64,000 nucleotides of DNA from a virus. Position numbers and translations under genes: made by a program. A model generated the notes under the pieces. The model saw only the letters and a list, made by a program, of their open reading frames with translations, had not been told where the DNA came from and did not search any database. Location: IMG/VR virus record IMGVR_UViG_3300034198_024692, positions 1-64,000 of that record; one strand, 5' to 3'. Positions 14,742 to 57,283 of the stretch are shown piece by piece; position 1 is the stretch's first letter; each line of letters begins with the position of its first letter.

Positions 14742-15878
14742 TTAGAATACTGAGCCGCTTCCAATACCGCTTACAAAGACACCATGATCAAGATCGTTGG
14801 GTCCACCGATTTGAGTAGAGAAAACAAGATCAACAGTCTTATTAGAACCAATGCTTGAGCTGAATGATTCACTATCAAGCTTAGCTCCTTTAATGTTATA
14901 AATCATAGCATTAGTAGCTCCTGAAGTTCCTGGCTTTTTGATAGTTAATGTTAAATCAGTTGTAATGTTCGAATCAAGAACTGCTGCTAAGTTTTCAGCA
15001 GTGATTTCATTAACAATTGCATTAACTGTTAAAGTTGAGCTTACTGGGAAATCAACTGTTCTAGCAAATGGGAATCTAGTTCCAAGACGCTGCAATGGAC
15101 TGCGTGAAAGAGGAATTGACAAGCTTGCGCTTTGAATGTGAATGCCGTCTGCATTGTTTGCTAAATCCGCAATAACACCAGATCCAGCGCCAGTAATATT
15201 TCCAAATGTAAGAGTTACATCACCAGGTCTAAGAGCGCTAATTCCGCCATTTCCAAGATTGCTAGCTCCAGATGGAAGAGCAATGCCAGTTGAAGCATAA
15301 GATGCGCCATCAGTAGGATTGATTGCTGGATTAATACCTGAAATTCCAGATCCAGTTGTTAACGTTACTCCAGTAGCTACAATGTTAGCAGCTTCAATCG
15401 TTACAGAAACAGTTGGCAAGCTTCCAACAGCTAAATCAAGAGTATAATCAGACAAGAATCCATTACCGATGCCAATAACTGACTTAGTGTTTGCGATTGT
15501 TGTGTTGCTATTATGATCATTTCCTTCTGCTGTGGTAACAATGAAGAAGTTCTTGCCGCTGGTAGCAGTCATGTGACCAGAAGGGAAGTTTCCAGTAGTG
15601 CCTCCAGCTCCAGTTTGTACATAGAATCCTAAAGCTCTTTCGTTTGTACCGTCAGTTAAATAGTAAGAAAAGTCAAGATTAACAGTTGGTGGATCAAGAA
15701 CAACAGAATCAATACGAGCTAATTCACCGTATTGGTTAATATCTTGACGACTAATTGAAAAGTTATAATTAGCGCTTTGAACGCGATCAAGCTGTCTATG
15801 CTTTCCAGTAGCAGTGGAAAGAATGTCTTCACTAACATATAAAGCTTCTGATTGGTAAATTACTCGGTTACGTGCCAT
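14742..15878 (-). CDS. Major tail tube protein
   Basis: A 378-residue beta-rich protein, the last gene of the minus-strand neck/tail operon and the best candidate for the tail tube subunit. It begins MARNRVIYQSEALYVSEDI, then shows a YNFSISRQDINQYGELARI strand pair and VNLDFSYYLTDG, with long Gly/Ser/Thr-rich loops in the middle (about 170-240) that may be an inserted Ig-like domain. The final strands (DSESFSSSIGSNKTVDLVFS) recur in similar form in three other proteins in the window. Codon bias toward frequent codons fits high expression. A terminator follows directly. A TGTAAACAAAATAAAG stretch upstream could be a weak promoter copy. Confidence 0.75.
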   Translation of the reverse strand: MARNRVIYQSEALYVSEDILSTATGKHRQLDRVQSANYNFSISRQDINQYGELARIDSVVLDPPTVNLDFSYYLTDGTNERALGFYVQTGAGGTTGNFPSGHMTATSGKNFFIVTTAEGNDHNSNTTIANTKSVIGIGNGFLSDYTLDLAVGSLPTVSVTIEAANIVATGVTLTTGSGISGINPAINPTDGASYASTGIALPSGASNLGNGGISALRPGDVTLTFGNITGAGSGVIADLANNADGIHIQSASLSIPLSRSPLQRLGTRFPFARTVDFPVSSTLTVNAIVNEITAENLAAVLDSNITTDLTLTIKKPGTSGATNAMIYNIKGAKLDSESFSSSIGSNKTVDLVFSTQIGGPNDLDHGVFVSGIGSGSVF

Positions 15879-15932
15879 AATTTTTTATCTTTATTTTGTT
15901 TACATTTTCAAATACTAAACGTGAAATTATTT

Positions 15933-16781
15933 TTATTCTCTAGGCATTCTTTGTTGATGTATTTCGAAATCAATGAAGCCAATATACAAATCATTTGCTA
16001 AAGATTTTCGAGCTTTATCTGTCAACTTTGAAGTATCAACTTCTTCAATAAAAAAGAATTGATTTCCTGCATATTGAGTTTTTAAATTTTCGTAAGAAAA
16101 GTTCCCATTTTTAATATCTCCATACTCAGTAATTGGATTGCCAGAATATGGAATATTAGGAATAACTTCATTGTAAGAATCAGCAAAAATAGAAAGAACT
16201 CCATCTAATTGATAAGGATTTTCAGCAAGCACAACAGCTTTCATTGAGATCTTAGTAGTATCTTCGCCGCCGAAAGCAAAAGGATCATTCCTCATTGATT
16301 GGCTCGAAATGAATATAGCTGGAACTACTTGATCATATGGTTCTACATATGTATTTGGCGCAGAATAAACTCTTGGATTAGAATTGTACTTTTTATCTAC
16401 GAGCAGATCATCTTCTCCATCATTTGTGAAGTATATGTTAAAGTCTTTTACCGCAAAAGATCCAGTAACTGATGCAGCGTTAGATACTCCACTAATTAAA
16501 GCTCGTCCATTTTCAAAATCCAAAAGAAGACTATTACTTCTTGGTTGAAAAACTCCGTTTACATAAACACCAGAAGGAACAACAGCTCCATTGATTGAAG
16601 AGTCAGTAACCCACTGTTTATAAGCACTGCCAAAAGCTTTATATCTATCATCTAATCTATCGTCAGAATACCTGTGAAATACACCCGTTTGATTGCTGAA
16701 TGCTTGACCTTTTTTTAGCAAAAAGTTGTCAAACCAAAGCATGAATGATGTTGTTGCTCTGTGTTGAAATTGTTCAATCAT
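15933..16781 (-). CDS. Tail terminator-like / neck protein
   Basis: A 282-residue protein between the HK97-gp10-like protein and the tail tube gene, where tail terminator (tail-end capping) proteins usually lie. It starts MIEQFQHRATTSFMLWFDNFLLKKGQAFSN in two helical parts, then is beta-rich with a central TGSFAVKDFNIYFTNDGEDDLLV section and a C-terminal strand region (LYIGFIDFEIHQQRM). No catalytic motif is visible. The role is inferred from gene order; it is longer than classic tail terminators, so an additional domain is likely. It overlaps the upstream gp10-like gene by four bases. Confidence 0.5.
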   Translation of the reverse strand: MIEQFQHRATTSFMLWFDNFLLKKGQAFSNQTGVFHRYSDDRLDDRYKAFGSAYKQWVTDSSINGAVVPSGVYVNGVFQPRSNSLLLDFENGRALISGVSNAASVTGSFAVKDFNIYFTNDGEDDLLVDKKYNSNPRVYSAPNTYVEPYDQVVPAIFISSQSMRNDPFAFGGEDTTKISMKAVVLAENPYQLDGVLSIFADSYNEVIPNIPYSGNPITEYGDIKNGNFSYENLKTQYAGNQFFFIEEVDTSKLTDKARKSLANDLYIGFIDFEIHQQRMPRE

Positions 16782-17377
16782 GATAATTTTATTTTTATTT
16801 GTTCGTAATTAATTTTAGAGAAAAGTGCTCTGTACTTATTTATTAAAGCTGATATGTATGGAACGTTTTTAAAGCGACCGCTTCTCATTTTTGATTCAAC
16901 TTGAATACCAGCGTTAGAGTTGCCTTTTCCGTAAGAATTAAGATAAAATCCTAATCCAGAAATTCCAGATTCTATTCCTTTGGCCCAACTTCTTCCATTG
17001 GCCCAAGGCATAGGAGTTTGAGCAAATATTTCGCGGGCAGACGGAATAAAAATGTTAGCAGTTGTAATGTTTTTAGAAGTTCTATTAAATGATACGTTTG
17101 TTTTTTCCAGCATTTCAATTATAGGAATAATTGGTGCATCGCCAGAATCAAACCCAATAAAAGAAAATAAATTACCATAACCGCCTAAAGTATTAGATGT
17201 GTTTTGGGCATTGTAGCCATTCATAATTTCTTCAGTTATGGGATGATTCATAAATTCTTCAATCATTTGTTTTTTTATATCATTGACGATATCTCGCAAA
17301 TCATCTTCTACTTGAGATCTTAGAATCTTACCAGCTTGAGAATTAATACTGTCTAATACTTGCTTTGGTATTTTCAT
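16778..17377 (-). CDS. Tail completion protein (HK97 gp10-like)
   Basis: A 199-residue protein with the look of HK97 gp10-type neck proteins: an N-terminal amphipathic helix (DSINSQAGKILRSQVEDDLRDIVNDIKKQMIEEF), a middle beta region, and a C-terminal segment MRSGRFKNVPYISALINKY near the end. Many gp10-like proteins have a similar basic C-terminus. It would help join the tail to the head. One base overlaps the head-closure stop codon upstream and four bases overlap the tail terminator-like gene downstream, so the three are translationally coupled. Confidence 0.6.
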   Translation of the reverse strand: MKIPKQVLDSINSQAGKILRSQVEDDLRDIVNDIKKQMIEEFMNHPITEEIMNGYNAQNTSNTLGGYGNLFSFIGFDSGDAPIIPIIEMLEKTNVSFNRTSKNITTANIFIPSAREIFAQTPMPWANGRSWAKGIESGISGLGFYLNSYGKGNSNAGIQVESKMRSGRFKNVPYISALINKYRALFSKINYEQIKIKLS

Positions 17378-17835
17378 TATTCATCTAATGGAGTTAAAAA
17401 GAATTCGTAGTATTGATTTTCAAAAAGACCCATTGGAATTCCGTCGCTTTTGATTGAAAAGGTTTTTCCATCAAACTCAACCTTTCTTGCTTCTTTTATA
17501 AAAAGATAACCAGCTGGATCTACAACAATCTTAACAGATCCTTGTGGCATTATTATCTTGTTCTGAGATCCTTTATTGGAGCTTGAGTCTGACAAGAATT
17601 CTTCGTCCATCTTTATGTAGTAGATTCTCGCCATGAATTTGGAAGACACTGTTTGATTTGTAGTGTTGCTATAAGCTCCAGCATTTCCATAAATAGAATT
17701 ATATTGAGCAGAACTTGAGATAGTTACTTGTTTAGAATTTTTATAAACAGTAATCTCTCGTGAGAATGTATCGTGCAAATTTGCAAAAGCGGATGTTACT
17801 TTTAATTGATTTGCGATATTTATTAAACTTGGCAT
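17377..17835 (-). CDS. Head closure protein
   Basis: A 152-residue, mainly beta protein, first gene of the minus-strand neck operon. SREITVYKNSKQVTISSS, KFMARIYYIKMDEEFL and GSVKIVVDPAGYLFIKEARKVEFDG form the strand pattern expected of head-closure (gp16/FII-like) adaptors, which often carry a five-stranded barrel. The final strand ends YYEFFLTPLDE, as is common in this class. Identification rests on size, fold pattern and gene order; there is no diagnostic motif. Its ATG is 9 bases from a minus-strand GTGTAA motif. Confidence 0.6.
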   Translation of the reverse strand: MPSLINIANQLKVTSAFANLHDTFSREITVYKNSKQVTISSSAQYNSIYGNAGAYSNTTNQTVSSKFMARIYYIKMDEEFLSDSSSNKGSQNKIIMPQGSVKIVVDPAGYLFIKEARKVEFDGKTFSIKSDGIPMGLFENQYYEFFLTPLDE

Positions 17836-19956: not shown

Positions 19957-22900
19957 ATGCCAGCGTCAGTTCAGATACCAGTAACACAAACAGGGTTAGA
20001 AGCAAGCATTCAAGCAGCATTGAAAAATGCGGGCAAGGGCGCTCAAATTAATTTGGGAACGAATTCCCGTCAAATTAATGCATTAGCTCAACCTCTTGGC
20101 CGCATTACTGGACAAGCTGACGAATTCACTAAGTCGATGGAAGCGGCAAATGCTCGCGTATTTGCGTTCGGAGCTTCTGTTGGTATTATTAATAGTGTAT
20201 CTAGCGCTTTTAGTTCTTTGGTTAAGAACACTATTGCAGTTGAAAAGTCTTTAACAGAAATCAATTCTGTCTTCCAAAAAAGTTCTTCTGAATTAGACAA
20301 ATTCGGAAACTCTTTATTCAACGTAGCTAAAAATACAGGTCAATCATTTGATGCTGTTGCAAAAGGCGCTCTTGAATTAGCTAGACAAGGTTTAAGTACT
20401 GAAGAGTCTCTTAAAAGAATTAATGATGCTCTTATTCTAACTCGCCTTTCTGGATTGGATGCAGAAAGATCTGTTTCTGGTTTAACTGCGGCAGTTAATG
20501 CTTTTAAAAGCACAGGCATTACAACATCTGAAGTTTTAAACAAATTAGTTACTGTTTCTCAAAAATATTCAGTTTCTGAAAAGGATTTGATTGAAGGTCT
20601 TAAGAGATCGTCATCTGTTGCGAAACAGGCTGGAGTTTCTTTTGATGAGTTGGTTGGTATTATTACGGCAGTTCAAGAAAAGACATCAGTTGGTGGAGCA
20701 GTTATTGGTAACTCGTTTAAAACGATCTTCACAAGATTGCAAAGAACAGATACATTAGAAGCTTTACAACAGCTTGGAGTTTCTGTCACAGATGTTCAAG
20801 GCAAGATACTGCCAGCTACAAAACTTCTCGAAAACTTAGCGGCAACAATTAAAAGTCTTAATCAAGTACAGCTCGCAGAGATTACTGAAAAAGTTGGTGG
20901 CGGATTCCAGATTGATAAATTATTAGCAACTTTAGAGGATTTGAGCAGTCAATCTTCAGTAGCTTTTAAAGCTACCGAAGTATCTTTGAAAAGCACCAAT
21001 CAAGCTTATGAAAAGAATGCGGCTCTAAATGTTACATTAGCTGCTTTAATCAATAAGACATCTTTAAGTGCAGAACAGCTTGGAGCTACATTGGGAAAAA
21101 TTGGCATCACTGACAGTGCTAAAAGTTTACTTGGATTCTTTAATGGCCTTCTAGAAAGTATCCAAAAAATTCTTGGCGAAGAAAGTGCGTTGGGAGATGT
21201 TTTCAGAGGTTTAGCTAAAGGTATTGGAAATCTTGTTACAGGTCCAGGCTTAGCTTTATTTGCAGCTATTATCTTAAAGCTTTCAAAAGATCTTGCGCAA
21301 TTTGGTTTTGCAAGCTTAAAAGGTTTCTTTGGAATTGGTAAAGCAGCAAAAGAGATTCAAAATGTTGAACAGTCTATTGCTTCAGCTCTTTCTAAGAATA
21401 TCAATCTTCAGCGTCAACTTTTTGCATTAGAAGGAAATCGCACGGCTCAGATCAAAGTCATGTCTGACGCTATTGTAATGCAAGAAGCAGCAATGAGAAG
21501 AATGGCTTCTACAGCAAGCTCGCTAGCAGCTCCTCTTTATCAACAAGGAGTAAGAAGCTCTGGAGAAGGCTTAAGAGTTCCTAAAGCGGCTGGCGGATAC
21601 ATGCCTGCTGTATCGCAAGAATCATCCGACATTAAAAAAGGTGTTGGTGGTGCAAAAGCTGGAGATCGTCCAGTTGTTATTCCTAATTTTAATTTTGGTC
21701 AAGGCAAAAAAGGATCTATTGTAGCTCATACTGGAGAATATGCGGTTCCTAATTTTGGAGGAAGTGGCGGAACAGCTATCTTTAACAGAGACATGGTTCG
21801 CTCTATGGGCTTGCCATCTGGAGCTAAGAAGATCACTGCATCTGGCGGATTGATTCCAAATTTTGCAAAAGTTTCTGAAATAGTAAAATATTTTAGTACG
21901 ACTCTTGTGCCAAAAATTAATATATCTCAATCTTCAGATGGAAGATTATCAAAAGACGATAATGTTAACTTGATTGGAAATGGATATCAAAAATTGTACG
22001 TCCCTAGAAATAAAGGAGAATCAACTAATGATTATGAGAAAAGAATCGCTAAGCAGTATGGATATACTACTGGAGGAATGTTCGGAAAGGAAAATTCAGC
22101 AGTGGACGGCTTCAAAGGTCCAACTTCTCTTTTAGAGGTTAAAAGTGGGTCTTGGGACGATAGTGATGTAAAATTAAAATTTTTAAGAGCGAATATAGAA
22201 AATTATGGTCGTAATTTACCTTTAGATGTTTGGACAAAAAATAAAGATAATATCAAAGTAAATGGTTTGCTAGTTCATTCTGATGAATCAGATAGAGGAA
22301 ATTTTTCAAAAGCAAAAACGTTAAAACAAGATTTAATCAATACTGATAAATATAGATCGAATAAATATGGAAGACCTAGAAAAATTGATGATTTTGGGAA
22401 ATATATAAAAAATCTTTCTTTTGGATTTATACCAAACTTTGCTGATTTAGCAGACACTATTAGACAATATTATCCAGATTTAGAAAGCTACAGAAAAGAA
22501 CCAGGTGGAAAAAAATTCGTTTTCCCTAATGGCCTAGAAACTTACCAATCAAATATTGATAACGTTCTTAAAAGAAATCCATCTATTGCTACACAAAGAA
22601 AACAAACAGAAGATAAGGTAAGACAGCAGAAACTTAAAGAAGGCGCTCTCGATTTCAAAATTGACGCAAATACTTTAGGAGGAATCGCTTTAGTCACTCC
22701 GAGGAATGGAGATGCTTCTGGATATGTTTCGGCAAAACTAAAAGGTTCTGATTTTAAAAAAAATAAGCCGCGAGGTATTTTAGATGATGATCAAATCATT
22801 TTAAGCAATATTCAACAAACTGGAGTTCCTACTAAAAAGAATTTCGAACAAATATCTTCAGAAATCAATAAACTTTTTGCTGGTCCAATCGTGACGCTCG

Positions 22901-25900
22901 CTCAATCTTTATATGGGCGACTTTATTCTGGAATGCAAGCGGGAGAATTTGCAGATCAATTAGGAAATCTTAAATCTACATCCACAGGAGGAATTCTTCC
23001 TGCGGGTGCAGAAGGTCAGCTTTTTGAAGCTGCTAGTAAAGCTGCATTGACTACAATGAAAGGTCTTTCTGATTCATTTGATCCAAAAAATGAAAATAGA
23101 CCATTTGATTTTACTAACCCAGCTGCAATGAATCAAATGTTGGGAGTAAAAGCTGTAAGAGGTGATGCGAAAAGAGGAGGTGGGTCTACGGAAAATTTTC
23201 AAGGTCAAGTTAATACTCTTATCAAAAAGTCAATGAACGATGGAGACATCGCTCCAAAAATATTATCTCAAATAAGTCAACAATCCAAAGCTAGAAAATC
23301 TCCTAATGCCGCTAAGGGTTACATCCCAAACTTTGTTAGCAAAAGTAGAGAAATTGGATCTGGTGCAGAAGCTAGATTTTTAAGACTTGGAACAAAAGAG
23401 GGAATAGATGTTGGTGTTAAGAAGTTTTATAAAGATGGTCCAAAAAACGCACTTTCTCAGGAATGGTTGATCAGTCAGTATATCAATAGATATTTGAACA
23501 TCCCAGGTATTTATGGTCCAAAAACATTGTCTGGTTTCAATGAATCCAACAGACGAGGAGCAATAAGAAAAGAAATTATATCTGGTAAACTTGGAAAGAT
23601 AGCACTTGGTTCTGACAAAGCTAGATTGTTTGGACTTGGAACTCTACGCTCCGCTGTAAAAACCAAAGGTTTAGATCTTACTGATTTACATGGATCTAAT
23701 TATATACTTAATAAAAACGCTGAGAATTACTTGAGTAAGTTTTCAACTTATCCTTCAGATCCGATTGGATCGCTGACTTTATTGAGAGAAATGGCATCTA
23801 ATGGTGGAGTTGCTAGTCTTATTGATCCAGGTTTTGCGCGAATTACTGGATCTCCAGCTAGAGACGTAGTTGATAAAATGCTCAACTATATAGACAGCAA
23901 AAAAAAGAAAACAGCCGCAAAAGGCTTCTTGCCAAATTTTGCAAATCCTCTTAAAGATGCAGTTAACCGTGAAATGGCTGCGGGAGTTCCTGCTTCTCAA
24001 ATCTACATAGACAAAAATTCATCTCTTAAAAACGCGGCTAATCCAATGGGATTAATGGTTGCTAATCGCCGTGATGAACCAGCAGGTGGATTTCAAGGAA
24101 TCAATAGAGCAAGAAAAGAAGGCATGAATCCGCAAACATATGGTGCGGCAAGTGGATTTGTGCCGAATTATGCAGATGCGCCAGACATTTCTGGATACGT
24201 AGGTAAAACAAGAAGTGATGCTTTAGCGGAAGAATCTAGAAATTATGGAAAAGCTTATGCAGATCTTATAACTGAATTAAGAAAAGCAACGGCTGATGAA
24301 AAACAAGCTAGAGGTAAAAACAAAAAAGCAGCGCAAGATAGAATAAAAGCTCTAGAAGATGATAGAGAAGCTCTTAAAAAATCTTCAGATGCAACTCGAA
24401 AAGCAATCATTGAACAGTCAAAAGGAGCTTTTGGTAAAGGCAAAACCTTAACTGGTAAAGAAGCTACTGTTCAAGCACAAGGTGGACAAAAAGATATGCT
24501 TGGAACTATCTTTGCGTTGCAAGGAGCATTTAGTATATTGACTGGAGCTACAAGTGATGCTTCATCACAACTTGCAAAATATACTAATATAGTATCAGAA
24601 AGTGCTGGAGGTTTTGTGACAGCAGCATTCGCTATTCAAGGTTTAGGCCAAATTGGCGGAAAAGTAGGTCCAGCGTTAGCAAAGTTAGGGCCATATGGAT
24701 TAGCAGCAGCTGGAGCAATAGCATCTTTTTCGGCTGGTGGAAAAATAATGGATGAATATTATGGTATTACTAAAGCAGCTACAGCTAATATAGCCAAGAT
24801 GTCCGAAGCGGTGAAAAATGCGGCATTTACATTTGAAAATTTATCTGAACCAGGAAAAAAGAAAATAGAATCTTCGGCAATAGGTTTAGTCAGAGGAGCA
24901 GCAAGAGAGAGCATGACAGCTCGTTTTATGGCTGATTTTGAAGGCTCAGATTTCTTTACAGCTGGAGAATTAGAAAAAAGTTTAGTAGATGTTGTTAAAA
25001 ATGCAGACGCTGCTGGTGTGAGCTATAACAGAATGTGGGATGAAATAAGAAAAAAATCAGCAGATGGGAAAATAACTGTTAAAGAAGTAGATGAATTAAC
25101 AGGTTCTTTTTCTAAATTAATATTTACATCATCGCAGTTAAAAAATGCAAAAAGAAATTTAGATTTATCTCCAACAGGAACTATTGGAAAAGAGTTTATT
25201 GGTAAATCTAGACAAGATATAATGTCTGATTTGGAAAATTTAAAAAGTGGATCTACTCCAAATCCAAATACAGGGATAGGAATGATTCAAAATGCAATTT
25301 TAAGCCAATTAACGGATGATCAAAAAATAGGATTTGACATAAATAGCGAAGCTGTAAAAAGTGAAATTCTTAGAATATATGATGCAACTATAGATCTTAA
25401 GAATGCATTTGCAGATACTGCTAAAGAAGCATTAGATTTAATGAATATTTCTTATGCTCAAAATCAATTAAAGAATACTATTGATCTTTCAATTGCACAA
25501 CAAAGAACTACTCAAGAATTAGATCTTCAATTGCTTTCTGCCAAGGAGCTTAATAATTTAAGCGAAAAAGATATTAGAAGTTTAGAGAATAAAATAGCTT
25601 TGCGCGATTTAGATAGAAAATTAATAGACGAAACTTCTAATCTTCTCAAAGGACAGATTGATAAAGCTAAATTGCTTGTAGCAGATAAAAAACAAACAAT
25701 TAAGCTAGAAGAACAATTAAAAACTTTTTCAGAAGATGATTTCAAAAATAAAGATACAGTTACTAAATTACTAGGAGAAATAAATATATTGTTGGGTACT
25801 GGAACTAATCTCACAGAAGCTCAGAGAAAAGAAAATGAACAGATTTTAGATAATCTTCTAAAGAAATATAATTTAGATAAGGAAGATTTAAAAACTCAAC

Positions 25901-28227
25901 AACAAAAAACAGAGGAATATAAAAACCAAGCATCAACAATAAAAGATATAATCTCTTCCGCACAAAGAGCTTCCCAACAAAGAGCTTTTGGTATAGACAT
26001 ATCTTCAAGAAGATCTGAGTTTTCAAATACTCAGCGAATTTCTCAATTACAAGCTTCAAAATTAGGTAGATCAACTGAAGAAATTAGAGTAATAGACGCT
26101 CAAATCGCTGCGATTGAAGCTAATACTGTGGCTGTGCAAAATGCTGCAAATTATAATAAAATGCTCGAAGAAAAAAGGGGGGAATTGTTGGGTTTAGCAA
26201 AACCAACAGATGATATTTCAGCAATGACATATAGGAATGCTTTTGAAAGCGCGAAAACTATGAGCAGCTTAATAACAGAAGCTGAAAACCTTATTGGCGC
26301 GACTAGATTTAATGAAGAAGATAATCAAGCTATCAAAGACTTTATCCTAAAATTGAAACAAGAATCTGAAAGTCTTCAATTAGACGCTGAATCATCCCAA
26401 GCGGCAGCAGATGCTCGCACAAGAGAAGCTGGAGCAATAGAGCCAGTTATATCAGCTTTAGAAATGTTTAGAAGATCTCTGCTTGATTCTACAGATATCA
26501 TTGATCGAAAAATTCAAGATTTAGAATTAGAAAAATTAACTTCTATATCTGGAAGAAGAAACGCTGAAATTGCTTATGAAATAGAAACTCTTAATCAGCA
26601 AAGAGGACAAAGCCCAGAAGAAGCGGCAAGAATAGCGAGAAAAAGACAGGTAAAAACAATCCCTCAGTTGTTTGCAGAAGAGTTTAGTAAAACTAACGAA
26701 GAAAGAACGTTGGAGCTTAATAAGACAATCGTTGATGCTTCCGTTCAATTTAAAAATAATTTAGTAGATGGTATTTCTGAAGCTATTGAAGGTGGAAAAT
26801 CATTAAGTGATACTCTTAGAGCTGGAGCTTTAGATTTTGTAAGACAATTGAACAAGAAATTAATGTCTAATGCTATAGATTCGATTCTTGGATCAAATCC
26901 AAATTCATCTTCAGGAGTATTTTCATCCATTTCTAAAATTTTTGCAGGAAATGGCAAAGCCTCTGGAGGAATGATTTCAGGTGGATCGGGAACCAAAGAT
27001 GATGTCCCTGCAATGTTAATGGGCGGCGAATATGTTATCAACAAAAAGTCAGTTGGTAAATATGGACCTCAATTTTTAGAAGCAATCAATAATGGAACAT
27101 TAGGCGGTTACGCAAAAGGAGGAATGATACAAAGTGGTCAAGGAGGTTTCTTTACTCCAGGAACTTATGGACTTGGCGGAATTCAAGGAACTCGCAACTT
27201 ACTTAAGTTTGCAACTCAAGGATATACTTCTGGATCTAGAGATCAGATAATAAATCAAGGAAATTATGCTTCTATAAACTTGGAACCAGAAAGTGTTAGA
27301 TTGACAAATTTTGGACGCAATAACAGTCCTCAAGCTGAAGCAACTAGAGCTGCGAAAGAACAAGCTTTTGGTTTGTATATGCAAGAAATGCAAGCTCAAG
27401 CTGAAGCAAGAAAACAAGCAGAAGCGGAAAAAGATGCACTGAAAAAGCAACTCATATTGTCGGTGGTATTAGCTGCTGGATCTGGATTCTTTAAGGCTTA
27501 CGCTGGATCTGGTGCAACTGGAACAGCACGATTAACTGATGCGGCTAAAGGAATTTGGAGTGGTTTTGAAGGAAAAGGTGGTTTATCTAATTTATTTAGT
27601 TCTGGGGGATCATATTCAACATCAAAAAATAAAAATGCTCCAAATGGATATAATGTGAATCCATATGATAATGATCAAATAAATGAAGTAAATTCTGCTT
27701 TGGGAGGTTTAGGAGTTTCTCCATTAAATTTTGGAGGATCTAATAATGGTGTTTATAATAATAACATACCAGCATTCACTACTGGTCCATTTGACGCGCA
27801 AGGACAGTATATAGAAGAACGCGCAAACGAAAGATTTGCAACTGGAGGTTCAATTCCTTTCAGAGCTGGAATCGACACAGTTCCAGCAATGCTTTCAGGC
27901 GGCGAATTCATTATGAATCGCTCTGCTGCTCAAAACATTGGTGCTGGTAATCTACAAGCGCTCAATGCTGGCGCAGGAAGCATCGTCACAGAAGAAAAGA
28001 CTGAAGAGTTGAACGAGAAGCTCATCGCCAAGCTTGACGAGCTTATTGAAGCTTCTAGCGCAGCTGGAAATATCACCATCAATGTTGATGGATCAACTGG
28101 CAAATCTTCTCAAACAACCGATGGAGGCGCATCAGAACAAAAACAACAGCTTGCACGACAAATCAAAGATGTTGTTCTTAAAGTTATTCAAGACGAAAAG
28201 AGATTGGGAGGCTCATTGAGAAAGTAA
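19957..28227 (+). CDS. Giant tape measure protein with embedded enzyme-like domains
   Basis: A 2756-residue tape measure that sets tail length. Residues 45-350 form a TP901-type tape-measure domain (EKSLTEINSVFQ, GQSFDAVAKGALELARQG, SVGGAVIGNSFKTIFTRL), followed by a hydrophobic segment near 430-460 (LALFAAIILKLSKDL). From about 545 to 1405 globular insertions are separated by a recurring motif, Gly-aromatic/hydrophobic-(V/I/L)-P-N-(F/Y): GLIPNFA (632-638), GFIPNFA (823-829), GYIPNFV (1121-1127), GFLPNFA (1323-1329), GFVPNYA (1400-1406), plus weaker copies near 575 and 597. The insertions look like nuclease, nuclease, kinase and a short module. Residues 1420-2290 are coiled coils; the end has two copies of a D-(D/T)-VPAML-GGE(Y/F) segment typical of tape measures. 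It is preceded by two chaperones and followed by distal tail genes. Confidence 0.93.
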   Translation: MPASVQIPVTQTGLEASIQAALKNAGKGAQINLGTNSRQINALAQPLGRITGQADEFTKSMEAANARVFAFGASVGIINSVSSAFSSLVKNTIAVEKSLTEINSVFQKSSSELDKFGNSLFNVAKNTGQSFDAVAKGALELARQGLSTEESLKRINDALILTRLSGLDAERSVSGLTAAVNAFKSTGITTSEVLNKLVTVSQKYSVSEKDLIEGLKRSSSVAKQAGVSFDELVGIITAVQEKTSVGGAVIGNSFKTIFTRLQRTDTLEALQQLGVSVTDVQGKILPATKLLENLAATIKSLNQVQLAEITEKVGGGFQIDKLLATLEDLSSQSSVAFKATEVSLKSTNQAYEKNAALNVTLAALINKTSLSAEQLGATLGKIGITDSAKSLLGFFNGLLESIQKILGEESALGDVFRGLAKGIGNLVTGPGLALFAAIILKLSKDLAQFGFASLKGFFGIGKAAKEIQNVEQSIASALSKNINLQRQLFALEGNRTAQIKVMSDAIVMQEAAMRRMASTASSLAAPLYQQGVRSSGEGLRVPKAAGGYMPAVSQESSDIKKGVGGAKAGDRPVVIPNFNFGQGKKGSIVAHTGEYAVPNFGGSGGTAIFNRDMVRSMGLPSGAKKITASGGLIPNFAKVSEIVKYFSTTLVPKINISQSSDGRLSKDDNVNLIGNGYQKLYVPRNKGESTNDYEKRIAKQYGYTTGGMFGKENSAVDGFKGPTSLLEVKSGSWDDSDVKLKFLRANIENYGRNLPLDVWTKNKDNIKVNGLLVHSDESDRGNFSKAKTLKQDLINTDKYRSNKYGRPRKIDDFGKYIKNLSFGFIPNFADLADTIRQYYPDLESYRKEPGGKKFVFPNGLETYQSNIDNVLKRNPSIATQRKQTEDKVRQQKLKEGALDFKIDANTLGGIALVTPRNGDASGYVSAKLKGSDFKKNKPRGILDDDQIILSNIQQTGVPTKKNFEQISSEINKLFAGPIVTLAQSLYGRLYSGMQAGEFADQLGNLKSTSTGGILPAGAEGQLFEAASKAALTTMKGLSDSFDPKNENRPFDFTNPAAMNQMLGVKAVRGDAKRGGGSTENFQGQVNTLIKKSMNDGDIAPKILSQISQQSKARKSPNAAKGYIPNFVSKSREIGSGAEARFLRLGTKEGIDVGVKKFYKDGPKNALSQEWLISQYINRYLNIPGIYGPKTLSGFNESNRRGAIRKEIISGKLGKIALGSDKARLFGLGTLRSAVKTKGLDLTDLHGSNYILNKNAENYLSKFSTYPSDPIGSLTLLREMASNGGVASLIDPGFARITGSPARDVVDKMLNYIDSKKKKTAAKGFLPNFANPLKDAVNREMAAGVPASQIYIDKNSSLKNAANPMGLMVANRRDEPAGGFQGINRARKEGMNPQTYGAASGFVPNYADAPDISGYVGKTRSDALAEESRNYGKAYADLITELRKATADEKQARGKNKKAAQDRIKALEDDREALKKSSDATRKAIIEQSKGAFGKGKTLTGKEATVQAQGGQKDMLGTIFALQGAFSILTGATSDASSQLAKYTNIVSESAGGFVTAAFAIQGLGQIGGKVGPALAKLGPYGLAAAGAIASFSAGGKIMDEYYGITKAATANIAKMSEAVKNAAFTFENLSEPGKKKIESSAIGLVRGAARESMTARFMADFEGSDFFTAGELEKSLVDVVKNADAAGVSYNRMWDEIRKKSADGKITVKEVDELTGSFSKLIFTSSQLKNAKRNLDLSPTGTIGKEFIGKSRQDIMSDLENLKSGSTPNPNTGIGMIQNAILSQLTDDQKIGFDINSEAVKSEILRIYDATIDLKNAFADTAKEALDLMNISYAQNQLKNTIDLSIAQQRTTQELDLQLLSAKELNNLSEKDIRSLENKIALRDLDRKLIDETSNLLKGQIDKAKLLVADKKQTIKLEEQLKTFSEDDFKNKDTVTKLLGEINILLGTGTNLTEAQRKENEQILDNLLKKYNLDKEDLKTQQQKTEEYKNQASTIKDIISSAQRASQQRAFGIDISSRRSEFSNTQRISQLQASKLGRSTEEIRVIDAQIAAIEANTVAVQNAANYNKMLEEKRGELLGLAKPTDDISAMTYRNAFESAKTMSSLITEAENLIGATRFNEEDNQAIKDFILKLKQESESLQLDAESSQAAADARTREAGAIEPVISALEMFRRSLLDSTDIIDRKIQDLELEKLTSISGRRNAEIAYEIETLNQQRGQSPEEAARIARKRQVKTIPQLFAEEFSKTNEERTLELNKTIVDASVQFKNNLVDGISEAIEGGKSLSDTLRAGALDFVRQLNKKLMSNAIDSILGSNPNSSSGVFSSISKIFAGNGKASGGMISGGSGTKDDVPAMLMGGEYVINKKSVGKYGPQFLEAINNGTLGGYAKGGMIQSGQGGFFTPGTYGLGGIQGTRNLLKFATQGYTSGSRDQIINQGNYASINLEPESVRLTNFGRNNSPQAEATRAAKEQAFGLYMQEMQAQAEARKQAEAEKDALKKQLILSVVLAAGSGFFKAYAGSGATGTARLTDAAKGIWSGFEGKGGLSNLFSSGGSYSTSKNKNAPNGYNVNPYDNDQINEVNSALGGLGVSPLNFGGSNNGVYNNNIPAFTTGPFDAQGQYIEERANERFATGGSIPFRAGIDTVPAMLSGGEFIMNRSAAQNIGAGNLQALNAGAGSIVTEEKTEELNEKLIAKLDELIEASSAAGNITINVDGSTGKSSQTTDGGASEQKQQLARQIKDVVLKVIQDEKRLGGSLRK

Positions 28228-28228
28228 A

Positions 28229-29020
28229 ATGTTTGGACAAATTTCAAATTACGAAAACAAACTATTTATATCTGGCCAAGAAGTAATTGGTGTAGAGAAT
28301 GTAGAATTTTCGTATTCTCAATCTTCTAACGTTTTAAAAGCTCTTGGGTATTCAGTTGGCCAAACTGTTGTTAGTGGTCCTCCACAACAAAAAGTATCAA
28401 TATCGCAAAACTTAATACACAGCGGCGGATTGATTAATTATACTGGAGAAAACAATATAAGCGGAAGTATAAATTACGATGGCAATAACTATGGATTTCG
28501 CAGTGGATACTTAACTGAATACTTAGTTAATTGCGCGGTCGGATCTATTCCAAAAATCACAAGCAATATTGTTGTTTATGATGATATGGTGACTGGAACA
28601 AAAAATGCATCTGGATCTATTGCTTCTCCAGCGATTCATATTCCAAATCAAGGATCTATATCTGTCACATGCGACAATACTTCTACGAATAGAGTTGTTG
28701 GTTTTGATTATTCTATTAAAATAGATAGGATACCAATTTATTCAATAGGATCTATCTTGCCAAAAGAAATAGTAACGATGCCAGTTGTAGAATACTCCGC
28801 TTCTGTTCAAATAGATGTGGACGATGCTTTCTTATCTAACAGTACTGGATTTTTAAACTCTCGCCAAAACAAAACAGTATCATTTGCAATTAGATCCAGA
28901 GATAACTCCACTGTTCTTCAACAGTTAACAATTCCAAAAGCATCTTTAGTTTCTGAATCTTTATCAAGCTCGGCAGATGGTGGAGTTAAATTAACATTAA
29001 ACTATATAGGACATTCATGA
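28229..29020 (+). CDS. Tail-tube-like distal tail protein
   Basis: A 263-residue beta-rich protein one base after the tape measure stop codon. VIGVENVEFSYSQSSNVLKALGYSV, VSISQNLIHSGGLINYTG and the closing LVSESLSSSADGGVKLTLNY match the strand pattern of the putative major tail tube protein and two other proteins here. In this position a tail tube paralogue probably forms a distal tail or tube-tip ring. No enzymatic motif is seen. The next gene starts inside the last codons (ATGA overlap). Confidence 0.6.
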   Translation: MFGQISNYENKLFISGQEVIGVENVEFSYSQSSNVLKALGYSVGQTVVSGPPQQKVSISQNLIHSGGLINYTGENNISGSINYDGNNYGFRSGYLTEYLVNCAVGSIPKITSNIVVYDDMVTGTKNASGSIASPAIHIPNQGSISVTCDNTSTNRVVGFDYSIKIDRIPIYSIGSILPKEIVTMPVVEYSASVQIDVDDAFLSNSTGFLNSRQNKTVSFAIRSRDNSTVLQQLTIPKASLVSESLSSSADGGVKLTLNYIGHS

Positions 29021-29964
29021 GTACATTTTACGATAGAAGTAATAACATATTACTTAGTTCTGGAAATAGAATTACTGGATTAACATATAGTCCAGTTTAT
29101 GGATCTAGAGTTTCGTTTTCTTCTAAAGCAAACGTTTATGAAACTCAAGATGGATACTATAATTTAATTCCATTATCAATAAATAGTCTAGATGCGAAGT
29201 TTGAATTAAGATTTGATTTAAATCAATTTGATTCTCAAAAACTTGTAAATTTTATAGAGTCAAAGTCTGGATGTGAATTATATAGATTCTCTGATGCTTC
29301 AGCTTTTTATAAGCCAATCAGTGGAGTAACTGATAATTATGCAGTAAATCACATTAATAAAAACCACTATGAAGTGGCAATATCAATTGATGTTAATCAA
29401 GCTCCGACTTTATTAAATTGGTCTGGAATGACATTTATAAACTCTGGTTTGCAGCATTGGTCAACAGGAAGATCATATAAAAAGTATGATATAATTTATA
29501 GCGGCATAAGCAGCAACAAATTAAACAACTATTATTATTGTTCAGGAGATCACACTTCGTCTTCGCCAAGCATAGACGGTCCAACTGGATCAAGTTCAAA
29601 GTGGACTCAATCTTTCTTTTTTGAACCAGATATCGGTCTTCAAAATGATGTTCAGATTAAAGTAGATAAAATAGAATTTAAGAATTCATTTATTCAAAGA
29701 ATCAAAACTAGAAAACATTTGGCTCCAGTAAACCTATCTTATAAATTCACAAATATACCAACAATTGAAGCTAAGTCTATAATGCACTTTTTAGAAAATA
29801 AAGCTGGGTATAGAAGATTTTTACATCAGATACCATCTGTTTATAATAGACCGAAGGTTTTTTACGCTCCATCTTGGAGTCATTCTTGGAACTACTTAGA
29901 TTCCCATAATATTGAAATCAATCTAATTGAAGACCCACTGGGCATAATACCTACAGGAACATGA
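29017..29964 (+). CDS. Minor tail protein, duplicated gpM-like domains flanking a carbohydrate-binding-like module
   Basis: A 315-residue protein with two similar halves. Residues 20-135 and 225-315 both show a beta domain in which a long strand region leads to a helix (FDSQKLVNFIESKSGCELYRF versus EAKSIMHFLENKAGYRRFLHQI) and a final strand before a proline turn, resembling lambda gpM-like tail-tip domains. Between them, about 145-205, lies W..GRSYKKYDIIYSG...NNYYYCSGDH...W TQS, the spacing of the small chitin/cellulose-binding (CBM5/12-like) fold. The protein thus may combine a tail-tip ring with cell-surface sugar binding. It overlaps its neighbours by four bases each side. Confidence 0.6.
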   Translation: MSTFYDRSNNILLSSGNRITGLTYSPVYGSRVSFSSKANVYETQDGYYNLIPLSINSLDAKFELRFDLNQFDSQKLVNFIESKSGCELYRFSDASAFYKPISGVTDNYAVNHINKNHYEVAISIDVNQAPTLLNWSGMTFINSGLQHWSTGRSYKKYDIIYSGISSNKLNNYYYCSGDHTSSSPSIDGPTGSSSKWTQSFFFEPDIGLQNDVQIKVDKIEFKNSFIQRIKTRKHLAPVNLSYKFTNIPTIEAKSIMHFLENKAGYRRFLHQIPSVYNRPKVFYAPSWSHSWNYLDSHNIEINLIEDPLGIIPTGT

Positions 29965-31770: not shown

Positions 31771-32064
31771 ATGTTAATACAAAATACATCACCAGTTATA
31801 GTGCCTTCTTCAGAAGAAGTAGTTTTTGACTCTCTATGGATATCAAGAGTTATTATAGATACTCCAAATGCAAAATCAGATGGAAGAGCAATTATAGAAG
31901 TGCTACCTTATAATGCAGGCAAAAAGGAAGTGCTGAATCAACCTAGGCATTTTCGTATTGAAAATCTATGGCATAAAATAGAAGAAATTCCAGAATTTTC
32001 TGAAGCAATGGCCAAAATTATTGAAGTAGTTCAACTTCTTGAATCAGAAAATCAAGCAAGTTAA
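31771..32064 (+). CDS. Small hypothetical protein after fibre gene
   Basis: A 97-residue protein with an N-terminal beta part (SPVIVPSSEEVVFDSLWISRVIIDTPNAKSDGRAIIEVLPY, in two strands) and a C-terminal helix (EEIPEFSEAMAKIIEVVQLLESE). Unrecognised. It is four bases from the fibre stop codon and overlaps the tail end of the convergent minus-strand gene by four bases. A fibre-associated chaperone or attachment adaptor is possible from position only. Confidence 0.6.
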   Translation: MLIQNTSPVIVPSSEEVVFDSLWISRVIIDTPNAKSDGRAIIEVLPYNAGKKEVLNQPRHFRIENLWHKIEEIPEFSEAMAKIIEVVQLLESENQAS

Positions 32065-32480
32065 CTTTTGCCGAAGTCAACTTTGACTTTATTATTTTCG
32101 AATGATTTCATTTGATCTGGATGCCTTGCTCCCTTACGTTTCGCAGAATAATCAGAGAAGTATTTCTCTTTAACTGGATCTTTACCTCCAGCTAAAGCCG
32201 CTCTCTTATCGCTCAGTTCTGCGCTTCTATCAAGAAGGTCTCCATATGTGCCTTTTTTGTTTTGTGTTTTATCTACAAATTGCTTAGATGAAAAGGGGTC
32301 TACTTGAGAATCAATTGAAGCATTCGGAACAGTAAATACTCGCTTCCAAGTATTCTCATCTCCGTTTTTACCAAAGTATTCATGAACTTCGTTCATAGAC
32401 TGAACGATTTCAATATACTCATCTGTTTCCGTATTGTGATATATGTAGATTGGCAAGTTAGACCTCCTTTTATTATTCAA
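32061..32480 (-). CDS. FmdB-like small protein without cysteines
   Basis: A 139-residue protein whose start, LPIYIYHNTETDEYIEIVQSMNEVHEYFG, resembles FmdB/zinc-ribbon regulatory domains (usually P-x-Y-x-Y-x-C-x-x-C) but with the metal-binding Cys replaced, so the ribbon cannot bind zinc in the usual way. The C-terminus is basic and low complexity (KRKGARHPDQMKSF). It is the last gene of the minus-strand operon, overlapping the glycosyltransferase gene by eight bases. Such proteins are common in large phages; function unknown. Confidence 0.6.
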   Translation of the reverse strand: MNNKRRSNLPIYIYHNTETDEYIEIVQSMNEVHEYFGKNGDENTWKRVFTVPNASIDSQVDPFSSKQFVDKTQNKKGTYGDLLDRSAELSDKRAALAGGKDPVKEKYFSDYSAKRKGARHPDQMKSFENNKVKVDFGKS

Positions 32481-33552
32481 AAATGGAGCTGAGTATTTTA
32501 TCAGCAGTATTCTTATATGTCATTTCTTTAGAAAGGTTTAAACCTTCTGTGTTAACTGATCCATATTTATCAGCCGCAATTTGCATAGCTGAAATAACTT
32601 CGTCTTCATTCCAATCAAAGATTTCTCCTTGATTGTATTCAGATCCTTTAGAAAAGAAGAAGTTATCGTAAACTGGAATTTTTCTACTTGGCTCAACTAA
32701 GATACTGTTTTGTGAATTTGCCCAATCTTTGTGAGATGTAGCATTCAAAATAACGCTCCACTTGCCAAGACAAGTTGCATTAAAGCTTGGAAGATTCCAG
32801 CCTTCTGCGCCACTAAGACCAGTCAAGTCGATATCAATAGCATTCATTAGCTCATTGACTTCTTTGTTTGTCTTCAGATATGGAAGGAAGTTTATATTTG
32901 TATATCTCTTTCCATCTAAGACAGAAGCAATAATTGCCTGCATCTGCTCTGGCTTGAAGAATGGGTTCGTAACACAGCAAGTAAGCTGATATCTATTATC
33001 ATTGCCAAATTTCTTGAGCCAAGCCTTGATGATTTTCTCAGTATGCTTCCTCTTCTCAAATTTTCCCATCAAACCAAAGTGGATAACTCCACTTAAATAG
33101 GTTTTGTTGTTTACGTGGAAATCACTATCAAATCCCATTGGGACAAAACTGCAATTATTGCAGCCAGAATCTTCAAACAAAGATTTCGCGTAATTAGAAC
33201 TAAAGAAAGTTCTGTCCTGAGACTTACAGACAGATACTTCTTGTTTAGTGGGCTCGCTACACTCATAAAAAGTCAAAAGACTTTGATTTTGAGACTTGCG
33301 ATTTTCGCTACCATTAAGATGCCACAACTTAAAAGAAGCTGGCTTATCAGCTAGAATATCCCATCTTTGATTAATCGACTTTTGAAGCCAATCATTAAAT
33401 AGAGAATCTTGTTCAAATGCAGAAAGATCTGGATTCCCAACTGGGAAAAGCCCAACGTCGATTTCCATCTTCGAGATTTCACGAAGAATGTTATAAGAGA
33501 CGTTGCCAAAACTCAAAGAGTTCAACGGAGCTTCAATAAGTAGTTTTTTCAT
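32473..33552 (-). CDS. GT-B glycosyltransferase (GT4-like)
   Basis: A 359-residue GT-B-fold glycosyltransferase. The linker into the C-terminal Rossmann domain (VIHFGLMGKFEKRKHTEKIIKAW, about 150-173) matches the family 4 pattern, and SGAEGWNLPSFNATCLGKWSVI near 255-276 corresponds to the donor-binding E-x7-E region (Glu258 kept, the second Glu replaced). It probably transfers a sugar from a nucleotide donor to DNA, a virion protein or a host glycan; the acceptor is unknown. It lies in an early-looking operon with SSB and sigma, away from the sugar locus at 40-48 kb. The start overlaps the SSB stop codon by one base. Confidence 0.78.
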   Translation of the reverse strand: MKKLLIEAPLNSLSFGNVSYNILREISKMEIDVGLFPVGNPDLSAFEQDSLFNDWLQKSINQRWDILADKPASFKLWHLNGSENRKSQNQSLLTFYECSEPTKQEVSVCKSQDRTFFSSNYAKSLFEDSGCNNCSFVPMGFDSDFHVNNKTYLSGVIHFGLMGKFEKRKHTEKIIKAWLKKFGNDNRYQLTCCVTNPFFKPEQMQAIIASVLDGKRYTNINFLPYLKTNKEVNELMNAIDIDLTGLSGAEGWNLPSFNATCLGKWSVILNATSHKDWANSQNSILVEPSRKIPVYDNFFFSKGSEYNQGEIFDWNEDEVISAMQIAADKYGSVNTEGLNLSKEMTYKNTADKILSSIFE

Positions 33553-33935
33553 TAGAACGGAATATCTTCGTCGGTGTCGCTTGATTCAGAATCGACAACT
33601 GCTGCGGAAGTTGTAGGCTTATCGCTTTTTTGTCCACCACCAAGGAACTTAACCTTATTTCCCTTGATGAACATCTTGCTTTGAGCATTTCCATCTTTTC
33701 CAGTCCAACTAGACATGGAAAGTTCTCCTTCCACCATTGCTTCACGACCCTTTACCAAATACTTTTGGCAAACTTCAGCAGTCTTCTCCCAAGTTTCCAC
33801 ATCAATAAAACACTTATTCTTTGCGTTACTTTCAGAGATACAAATTCGGAAAGTGCAAATAGACTTTCCAGTATTCGTGACGCGAGTTTCTGGATCTTTA
33901 ACAAGATGACCGATTGCGATAATTGTGTTATACAT
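33552..33935 (-). CDS. ssb: Single-stranded DNA-binding protein
   Basis: A 127-residue SSB of bacterial type. The OB-fold core runs from MYNTIIAIGHLVKDPETRVTN to about residue 95, with FIDVETWEKTAEVCQKYLVKG and REAMVEGELSMSSW as typical SSB strand/helix elements. An acidic disordered tail ends DEDIPF, the conserved tip that recruits replication partners in bacterial SSBs. It coats single-stranded DNA during replication and recombination and would work with the RecA-like, primase and polymerase proteins encoded at 48-57 kb. It overlaps the sigma factor gene upstream by eight bases. Confidence 0.93.
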   Translation of the reverse strand: MYNTIIAIGHLVKDPETRVTNTGKSICTFRICISESNAKNKCFIDVETWEKTAEVCQKYLVKGREAMVEGELSMSSWTGKDGNAQSKMFIKGNKVKFLGGGQKSDKPTTSAAVVDSESSDTDEDIPF

Positions 33936-34497
33936 TTTTTATTTCGTTTTTTGCTTTGTTGATAAACTTATTATGAATATCAATACATCCTTGAATACTC
34001 ATATTAAGTTCTTTGGAGATTTCTTTCCAAGAATGAGCTTTATTATATCCGAAAGAGTATCTCATGTCAATAATCTTTTTCACTCTTGAATCTGAATTTT
34101 TTTCAGCCATGTCTAAAACTCTTTTCAAGATTTCCTTAGACTGAACATCTGACAAGAAATCCTCTGAGCTTTGTTTTTCCTTGATTGAATCATCAAGAGG
34201 CTCTTCAATCATTTTTTTATTCTTATTATATAGATTGAGGCACTTCCAGCGAGTTTCATTTGCCAAATAAGTTGGGAATTTTGTATTTTTATCTGCTTTA
34301 TATTTTAAAGCGGCAGAATAAATAGAAAAGTCTTTATCTAGTATTATATCTGCTTTATTAATAAAGTTACAACTATCAGATACAGTTTTATTAACCATAT
34401 CAAGATAAATACCAGAGTGCCTATTTATCAACTCTTTTAGACTATCACTGTCCTGATTATCTTTTATTTTGATTATAAGCGACAAGTCTGAGTCCAT
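33928..34497 (-). CDS. Second sigma-70-like factor
   Basis: A 189-residue protein with sigma-70 architecture. Region-2-like sequence covers roughly 12-95 (DSDSLKELINRHSGIYLDMV, then KFPTYLANETRWKCLNLYNKNKK). A linker follows, then a clear region-4 helix-turn-helix at about 138-185 (RVKKIIDMRYSFGYNKAHSWKEISKELNMSIQGC, shown in two parts). It should bind host RNA polymerase core and direct it to phage promoters. It lies in the sigma70-driven operon with nucleotide-metabolism genes, so it may be made early and switch transcription to the GTGTAA-type promoters. The window therefore carries two sigma-like factors. Confidence 0.78.
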   Translation of the reverse strand: MDSDLSLIIKIKDNQDSDSLKELINRHSGIYLDMVNKTVSDSCNFINKADIILDKDFSIYSAALKYKADKNTKFPTYLANETRWKCLNLYNKNKKMIEEPLDDSIKEKQSSEDFLSDVQSKEILKRVLDMAEKNSDSRVKKIIDMRYSFGYNKAHSWKEISKELNMSIQGCIDIHNKFINKAKNEIKNV

Positions 34498-35060
34498 AAT
34501 TCTAATTCTTTTTCTGGAACAAGCTTATGAAGTGTTTCATAAGCTACGGCTGTTAGCCAGTTTAAATTTTCAACAGTAGTCCAAGATAATTGGAAATCAG
34601 AACGATTTATGAGAATATCGTTATTCTCAGATTCTGTTTCATTTGCTGGTTCAACCATAGCGCCATTTTCTAGATATCTGCTTACAAAAACAGAATATCC
34701 TCCTTTGTCTTTAAGCCAATCCATTTCATTACCAAACCTAACATCAGTTATAATGTTAACTTTGTTTTCATCAAGTTGAGATTCAACATGATCGATCCAG
34801 ATATTTGGATTCTGCTTTCTCCGAACTTCAGTTCCCCATGTTACTAGAAATGGTCGGATTATCTTTTTTTCCTCATCATCTTGAGTAAAAGAGTCAATTC
34901 CGATTGTCTTTTGCAAGAAGTCTTTTACTTCGATCTTTAATTGATTTGCGAAAGACATTTTATGAGAAGCGATGTTCATGCTGCTCAAAACTTCGATCAA
35001 ACAATCAGCAAATGTATCTTTGCCGCTTCTTGCGGCACCAGAAATTCCAATAATTTTCAC
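34473..35060 (-). CDS. Deoxynucleoside monophosphate kinase
   Basis: A 195-residue P-loop kinase of the T4 gp1 (dNMP kinase) type, which phosphorylates dNMPs for DNA synthesis. P-loop GAARSGKDT lies at 8-16. PFLVTWGTEVRRKQNPNIWIDHV (about 90-112) and NIITDVRFGNEMDWLKDKGG (about 122-141) are the substrate-binding and lid elements seen in this family. It overlaps dUTPase upstream by four bases and the sigma gene downstream by 25 bases, so expression is coupled. Confidence 0.88.
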   Translation of the reverse strand: MKIIGISGAARSGKDTFADCLIEVLSSMNIASHKMSFANQLKIEVKDFLQKTIGIDSFTQDDEEKKIIRPFLVTWGTEVRRKQNPNIWIDHVESQLDENKVNIITDVRFGNEMDWLKDKGGYSVFVSRYLENGAMVEPANETESENNDILINRSDFQLSWTTVENLNWLTAVAYETLHKLVPEKELELWTQTCRL

Positions 35061-35581: not shown

Positions 35582-35846
35582 TATGTTTAATTAATTCAGC
35601 AGCATATTTATGCATACCGATATCTGCCAAAACAGAAGGTGAGTATATAAGACGAGTTTCCTCTATGTCTTTTTTGATTGGAATCACTGAAATGACAGCT
35701 CCAACTGAAAATTTATCGCCATCGGATTCCAAAAGCTTTTCTAAAGCTAAAGAAGCAGCAGTTTCATGAGATACTGCATCGTCGATAACGATATTCCAGT
35801 CTGCGCTAGAGCAGAGGTACGACTGATATACGGTTTCTTTTGACAT
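35565..35846 (-). CDS. Small hypothetical protein, first in early operon
   Basis: A 93-residue protein of unknown family, mixed alpha/beta: YLCSSADWNIVIDDAVSHETAASLALEKLLESDG followed by FSVGAVISVIPIKK and a final helix (MHKYAAELIKHIDKDD). It is the first gene behind the consensus sigma70 promoter at 35855-35883 and overlaps dUTPase by 17 bases. Being first in an early operon it could be a regulator or host-takeover factor; that is only suggestive. Confidence 0.6.
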   Translation of the reverse strand: MSKETVYQSYLCSSADWNIVIDDAVSHETAASLALEKLLESDGDKFSVGAVISVIPIKKDIEETRLIYSPSVLADIGMHKYAAELIKHIDKDD

Positions 35847-57280: not shown

Positions 57281-57283
57281 CTT

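Follow-up and report, generated by a model that had tools for sequence, protein, structure and literature searches.

The middle of the tape measure protein encoded by a virus in IMG/VR (record IMGVR_UViG_3300034198_024692) is an array of domains that is exchanged between related phages and has sharp boundaries. The stretch of DNA analysed, hereafter the window, comprises 64,000 nucleotides, positions 1 to 64,000 of that record. According to its available text, a survey of mosaicism in phage proteins could not confirm recent domain exchange in tape measures (PMC10684548), and the arrays described below are clear cases of such exchange. No description of tape measure arrays of this kind was found in the titles, abstract openings, and passages covered, which came largely from openly available journal papers.

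The tape measure gene and its layout

The tape measure gene (P0001; 19957-28227, plus strand, as are all features of this gene given below) is an intact open reading frame (ORF) of 2756 amino acids, and its initial annotation as a TP901-type tape measure holds. PhageMin_Tail (PF10145) matches residues 124-314 with an E-value of 2.2e-32 (113 bits against a Pfam cut-off of 33.2), and the long protein lies within a tail gene cluster, with a minor tail gene downstream at 29017-29961. Ten tape measure PHROGs align within residues 18-798; the best of them spans residues 31-468, and the match to phrog_167 (residues 34-798) extends into the interior, where no Pfam or NCBIfam model gives a match above its cut-off. 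A second public contig of 112 kb (L002) carries a copy that is 100% identical across all 2756 residues, which argues against misassembly of one record, and this possibility was ruled out on that ground.

The N-terminal scaffold (residues 1-560; 19957-21636), which includes the PF10145 match at 20326-20898, is conserved in relatives, with 38-80% identity to the window protein in an alignment of 18 sequences. It contains a possible membrane segment ahead of the array (residues 422-440; 21220-21276), whose Kyte-Doolittle mean is 1.77 and which is the sole 19-residue stretch of the whole protein with a mean of at least 1.6. A lead-in with pLDDT below 50 follows (residues 561-636; 21637-21864); it holds two looser PNF sites, at residues 576 and 598, and ends in the first strict copy of a motif that we call the seam. 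Five strict seams cut residues 637-1401 into four segments, namely cassette 1 (637-824), cassette 2 or the core (829-1122), cassette 3 (1127-1324), and a terminal segment (1329-1401), and comparison with relatives places the C-terminal scaffold at residues 1406-2756 (24172-28224). The array had been proposed to span residues 545-1405 or so; cargo does run from 637 to 1401, whereas 545-636 is tape measure lead-in and not cargo. The further proposal that the interior consists of compact segments bounded by PNF motifs, and not of a rod, is borne out by the five strict motifs, by more proline and aromatic residues than in residues 1-560 and 1720-2300, and by the confidently predicted core described below.

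Elsewhere in the window, a gene at 57282-59567 (plus strand) encodes a ClpA/ClpB-like AAA+ ATPase (Pfam AAA_2, 2.2e-53), a possible phage-carried unfoldase, and another at 59865-60929 (plus strand), distinct from the kinase-like cassette of the tape measure, gives weak matches to the phosphotransferase models EcKL (5.8e-05) and APH (9.6e-05). Two blocks of minus-strand ORFs, at 14742-17835 and 32061-35846, stand amid plus-strand genes and are possible cargo islands.

The seam motif

The strict seam, G-x-(V/I/L)-P-N-(F/Y), occurs five times in the protein, with the PN pair at residues 634, 826, 1124, 1326, and 1403. Seam 1 (residues 629-637; 21841-21867) marks the abrupt left edge of the array in relatives, and is followed by seam 2 (22417-22443), seam 3 (23311-23337), seam 4 (23917-23943), and seam 5, which reads GFVPNY (24148-24174). 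By shuffling the protein 2000 times, 0.0115 motifs per protein are expected as against the five observed, and this control together with the related arrays rules out a chance origin of the pattern. In six frames, no other window ORF of at least 60 amino acids contains G-x-[VILM]-P-N-(F/Y). A looser DNA pattern searched in four records gave eight matches as against none for its reversed control, and by coordinates all eight fall inside the tape measure match; the seam is a simple search key for such arrays.

Over 211 sites the seam has the consensus A-A-x-G-[YF]-[IV]-P-N-[FY]-A. A count over the seam copies of each gene gave 1482 identical codons out of 2882 that encode the same residue, as compared with 1359.7 expected; this is just 1.09 times the expectation, and a DNA-level repeat was rejected as the cause of the seam. 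Judged by its codons, the seam is selected at the protein level. In AlphaFold models, pLDDT is below 50 for all PN[FY] residues in four of the strict seams and for two of these three residues in the remaining one, and the seams are predicted to be mostly disordered. Since they combine this predicted disorder with selection at the protein level, the simplest reading of a seam is a linker and a recognition site at once, most likely a flexible linker under selection for recognition by a partner.

Exchange of cassettes among relatives

Seventy loci encoding relatives were found in IMG/VR, and a scan for the seam DNA pattern gave at least 120 matches, so that counts of relatives are lower bounds. 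Among 118 motif-bearing ORFs from loci L072-L189, some of which sit on contigs already among the 70, 115 match the window protein by BLAST and the other three run off an end of their locus. The set of at least 189 ORFs (71 plus 118) was reduced by 43 near-duplicates to 146 non-redundant ORFs including that of the window, seven of which have no N- or C-terminal scaffold match at 1e-8. Cutting was done solely at G-x-[IVLM]-P-N-[FY], with nine residues allowed at x, so that degenerate seams are missed, and yielded 400 segments in 69 clusters at 50% mutual coverage. Both ends of the array, that is, a tape measure N-terminal match and the terminal segment, were detected in 96 ORFs; the remaining 50, in which one or the other was not detected, were excluded from the counts of arrays.

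These 96 arrays, each with one to six cargo segments, contain at least 42 cargo families in at least 34 orders, so the comparison of homologous tape measures for swapped or missing insertions, suggested together with the initial annotation, came out in favor of exchange. A single cargo segment is present in 60 of the 96, and arrays like that of the window, with three cargo segments and a cap, are therefore a minority. Of the 26 cargo families represented by two or more members, 19 occur in more than one neighbour context and the other seven in one. The relative L028 shares 93% identity with the window protein in residues 1-636 and 86% in the terminal segment; it has neither cassette 1 nor cassette 3, and its single core cassette belongs to another family.

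The edges of the array are abrupt. In 575 pairs that differ in their first cassette but are at least 0.7 identical in the 60 residues ahead of it (the pairs share sequences and are non-independent), mean identity per 10 residues goes from 0.81 to 0.14 and 0.07 across the left boundary. The right boundary mirrors this, with a rise from 0.08 to 0.67 in 252 pairs, which likewise share sequences and are non-independent. Identity also collapses in pairs that share the first family (501 pairs on the left and 242 on the right), because core sequences of one family are themselves hypervariable; what the sharp step supports is therefore an exact boundary, and the evidence for exchange comes from the family counts. 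DNA identity falls at the boundary too in four of the five pairs examined, in one of which (L001/L028) the register is lost beyond about 105 bases upstream of the boundary, and the fifth (L001/L003) has cassette 1 in common. Searches with the kinase-like cassette and cassette 1 as queries found 15 loci, and in all 13 checked the match lies between seams. The idea that cargo is traded against rod length was rejected: the C-terminal part does not become shorter with increasing cargo (Spearman +0.41, n = 77), and total length including cargo rises with cargo (Spearman 0.74).

In a phage collection, none of the matches listed extended beyond the N-terminal part of the tape measure (best about 26% identity), and kinase, P-loop, and cytidylyltransferase-like segments gave no match at all. 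Of 14 loci on contigs of MAGs or genomes, five have the seam, and these are named Verrucomicrobiales, Neomarinimicrobiota, Halobacteriovorax (two), and Flavobacteriales; they may be binned phage contigs, so that the names point at best to candidate hosts. No seam was seen on the strand read in six loci of other bacteria with 22-30% identity. In one Halobacteriovorax MAG (L207 from 9974 onward and L209 from 1 onward), a tape measure ORF longer than 3800 amino acids contains eight seams. Separately, the arrays at L051:11612-13621 and L055:3925-5694 open with a low-complexity segment of 590-670 amino acids with GSKNQ or PPQER repeats.

The core cassette

The core (residues 829-1122; 22441-23322) carries the pattern E1024, D1051, and D1070-x-K1072, and one of three core families, 1, 2, or 9, is present in 88 of the 96 arrays. 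E, D, and (D/E)xK make up the catalytic pattern of PD-(D/E)XK nucleases, and all three families display it. In family 1 (85 sequences, also aligned as a subset of 35), the positions kept besides the seam glycine are a G, the E (81 sequences, with D in the other four), and the D, D/E, and K, each in 85 of 85. In family 2, whose alignment takes 29 of 30 members at a mean column identity of 24%, G, E, D, K, and a second K are kept, and D/E stands two residues before the first K in all 29. Family 9 has E, D, and D-x-K in five of five sequences, among many other invariant columns. A profile comparison links families 1 and 2 (E-value 4.6e-10), as against values to family 1 of 0.019 for the kinase, 0.022 for cassette 1, and 0.27 for the P-loop family.

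AlphaFold predicts a compact alpha/beta domain for the core, with a mean pLDDT of 87.8. Foldseek gave no significant match to it in PDB (best E-value 0.36) or in BFVD (0.12), VIA returned small GTPases, with a best Z of 2.6, along with a few others in a range down to 2.0, and a profile search against PDB gave nothing convincing; among the Foldseek, VIA, and BFVD matches listed, no restriction-endonuclease-like nuclease was recognised. Because the fold searches gave nothing for the core, the nuclease call relies on the sequence pattern, by which the core is quite probably a PD-(D/E)XK-type nuclease.

The other cassettes of the window and the terminal segment

Cassette 1 (residues 637-824; 21865-22428) is nuclease-like, with E694, VD at 716-717, and EVK at 727-729, all invariant in five of five aligned sequences. 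Its pLDDT is low (10-residue means of 26-68), and no profile link to the core was found (0.022, compared with 0.019 for the unrelated kinase).

Cassette 3 (residues 1127-1324; 23335-23928) is kinase-like. Its kinase-type residues, invariant in five of five sequences, consist of a glycine loop (G1134/G1136), K1155-K1156 as the VK lysine region, E1169 as the helix-C glutamate, D1243-x-H-G-x-N1248 as the catalytic D and N, and D1290-x-G1292 as the metal-binding DxG, with the kinase role of each residue assigned by eye. When the 856-residue model was compared by VIA, 48 of the 50 matches listed were kinase or kinase-homology domains. The other two were a Rab aligned elsewhere and the top match, 7cy2, whose title names no function and whose Z of 4.8 lies in a range that the tool calls common, for chains preselected by Foldseek. 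Three of the 48 we take to be RNase L. The C-lobe has pLDDT of 68-92 and the N-lobe mostly lower values. Foldseek with the same model gave no significant match (best E-value 0.10), and profile searches of the kinase and cassette 1 against PDB gave nothing convincing. None of the three cassettes of the window has a convincing known family in Pfam, NCBIfam, PADLOC, or PHROGs; PADLOC gave weak P-loop matches at most. The fold search weakly supports a kinase-like domain for cassette 3. Structure prediction and fold search of the array, also proposed at the outset, gave divided results: the core was modelled with confidence but cassette 1 was not, and the kinase was matched weakly but the core not at all.

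The terminal segment (residues 1329-1401; 23941-24159) caps the array. It is 75-86% identical in the nine relatives compared, among which it is the best conserved part of the array, its cluster has 101 members, and it gives no PHROG match; it may be a cap for docking or processing.

Cassettes carried by relatives

Other enzyme-like signatures occur in the arrays of relatives. First, a P-loop family has the Walker A sequence P-A-G-x-G-K in 13 of 13 sequences and a PDB profile match to a phosphate-loop protein (4e-5), and this cassette precedes or follows the core depending on the phage. Second, a cytidylyltransferase-like segment matches a cytidylyltransferase-associated Pfam model above the cut-off (6.2e-8) and a PHROG at 3e-05. 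Third, GNAT-like segments match Pfam below the cut-off (0.00089 and 0.0025), and a ParB-like segment in L096 has a Pfam value of 0.043 as its sole support. PDB searches with the cytidylyltransferase-like segment, the HAD-like profile, and the ADP-ribosyltransferase-like segment were empty or at chance level, and none of ten further segments from relatives had a match that passed the Pfam cut-off (best 0.0077).

Some labels were given by eye from known motifs, and these segments are presumed to be HAD-like (L160, L096), HExxH-type metallopeptidase (L073, L077), and ADP-ribosyltransferase-like (L102:7915-8550); the last finds no support in PDB, Pfam, NCBIfam, PHROG, or PADLOC. The array of L102 has no core of family 1, 2, or 9, and a further kinase-like segment seen in it by eye is 19-23% identical to the other five rows of the alignment, L086 among them. 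The domains had been described as enzyme-like, for which conserved catalytic patterns, the one Pfam match above cut-off, in a relative, and the weak kinase fold all speak, but the core remains without a fold match.

Proposed function and alternative readings

It seems moderately probable that the middle of the tape measure is a modular effector array that is delivered by the tail and acts early in the host. On the sequence patterns, the best reading of its contents is that a PD-(D/E)XK-type nuclease would be near-obligatory cargo, with kinase-like, P-loop, acetyltransferase-like, and nucleotidyltransferase-like domains as options. As part of the tape measure, the array would be built into a long non-contractile tail, would leave the virion ahead of the DNA, and would reach the inner membrane or the cytoplasm of the host, where the domains would fold and, early on, weaken host defences or divert host machinery. 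A partner that recognises the seam, be it the lumen wall, a chaperone, or a protease, would allow any inserted domain to be handled alike. Folded domains as large as these may not fit the tail lumen.

As for the tail, a sheath family was found in none of the four records searched, which are possibly fragments, with controls positive in three of 14 genomes. A minor tail family is above its cut-off in a window protein and matches all four records below the cut-off; we take this family to belong to siphophages. Because no sheath family was found and the minor tail family is presumably of siphophage type, a long flexible tail is likely. The hydrophobic segment before the array is compatible with insertion into a membrane. 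The tape measure of phage lambda is labelled by an inner-membrane protein during injection, as reported in the available text (PMC13190303).

Going further, a lineage of siphophage-like, uncultured viruses may, as a tentative proposal, have a plug-in effector system in which the tail tube works as a secretion device for several effectors. The ten-residue PNF seam would then accept nearly any enzyme of about 70-400 residues, and the inserts, nearly always placed around a nuclease, would be threaded out before the genome.

The seam could instead be a protease site at which the array is cleaved, after assembly or ejection, to release its domains as separate effectors. This is compatible with the tail-delivered array and would add one step to it. 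Owing to the way the segments were cut, each domain is separated from the next by a seam, which is predicted to be disordered and is selected as protein, and PHROGs name the window protein encoded at 57282-59567 an ATP-dependent protease (1.8e-198); however, among the 25 Pfam matches listed, that protein has just ClpA/ClpB-type ATPase domains and no peptidase, and a screen of 20 window proteins with PHROGs and 10 with Pfam, in a window that has more genes, recognised no other protease. Cleavage at the seams is accordingly held to be unlikely. The near-universal nuclease-like core (88 of 96 arrays) beside diverse optional cargo also invites the reading that the nuclease is aimed not at the host but at DNA in the particle, incoming phage DNA, or competitors, the other cassettes being accessory. 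The extreme divergence of the core would rather suggest a conflict with a varying partner, and we regard a non-host target as quite unlikely.

The same divergence, which reaches into a single family (501 pairs), would be expected of decoys, that is, variable domains whose surface is selected to evade host recognition of tape measures at injection. According to the available text, SNIPE, a nuclease of the host, is associated with the tape measure of lambda, and a phage escaped SNIPE variants through tape measure mutations (PMC13190303). Nevertheless, the invariants of the core are almost solely residues of catalytic type, which a decoy would not need, and unrelated optional domains carry enzyme signatures, so that decoys are very unlikely. 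Ordinary drift of a loosely constrained, indel-tolerant region with no enzymatic role agrees with the known variability of tape measures and with the empty fold searches of the core, but is most improbable and, on the sequences compared, largely refuted by the sharp boundaries, the re-use of families in different orders, and the invariant catalytic patterns.

Comparison with known systems

If the tail-delivered effector array is correct, the tape measure, usually viewed as a ruler and a channel, is also a delivery platform for interchangeable early effectors, and its cassettes form a catalogue of unstudied candidate counter-defence enzymes. The initial annotation had compared the layout to the cargo array of a polymorphic toxin. 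The 146 ORFs strongly support a modular, swappable layout, but the likeness lies in modularity alone: both have a fixed carrier and variable enzymatic parts, and polymorphic toxins vary mostly at the C-terminus according to the available text (PMC5512222), whereas several internal slots vary here. Sle1-type effectors, as far as the available text describes them, are related to tape measures, are modular with variable domains, and are loaded in contractile injection particles (PMC13277306); they are bacterial and have a C-terminal functional domain, in contrast to the phage-encoded, internal, and multiple domains of the present protein. P23-45 offers a precedent: its virion RNA polymerase is fused to the tape measure, and a role at the pore during entry has been proposed for it (PMC10770324). 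However, the available text describes one N-terminal enzyme, with neither a seam motif nor an internal array of interchangeable domains.

Another close parallel is with polyvalent proteins of phages and conjugative elements, which are thought to be injected with DNA (Iyer et al., 2017; PMC5512222). In the portions available, their domains include peptidases, ADP-ribosyltransferases, DNases, and predicted RNases (PMC5512222), as well as GNAT (PMC7824862). Like them, the window array joins several disparate enzyme domains in one polypeptide, as seen at the level of sequence patterns. In contrast, the polyvalent proteins of phages are placed in the head by that source (PMC5512222), in whose main text neither "tape measure" nor "PNF" occurs, whereas the present domains lie inside the tape measure and each is bounded by a fixed seam. 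The array is best read as a putative tape-measure counterpart of polyvalent proteins.
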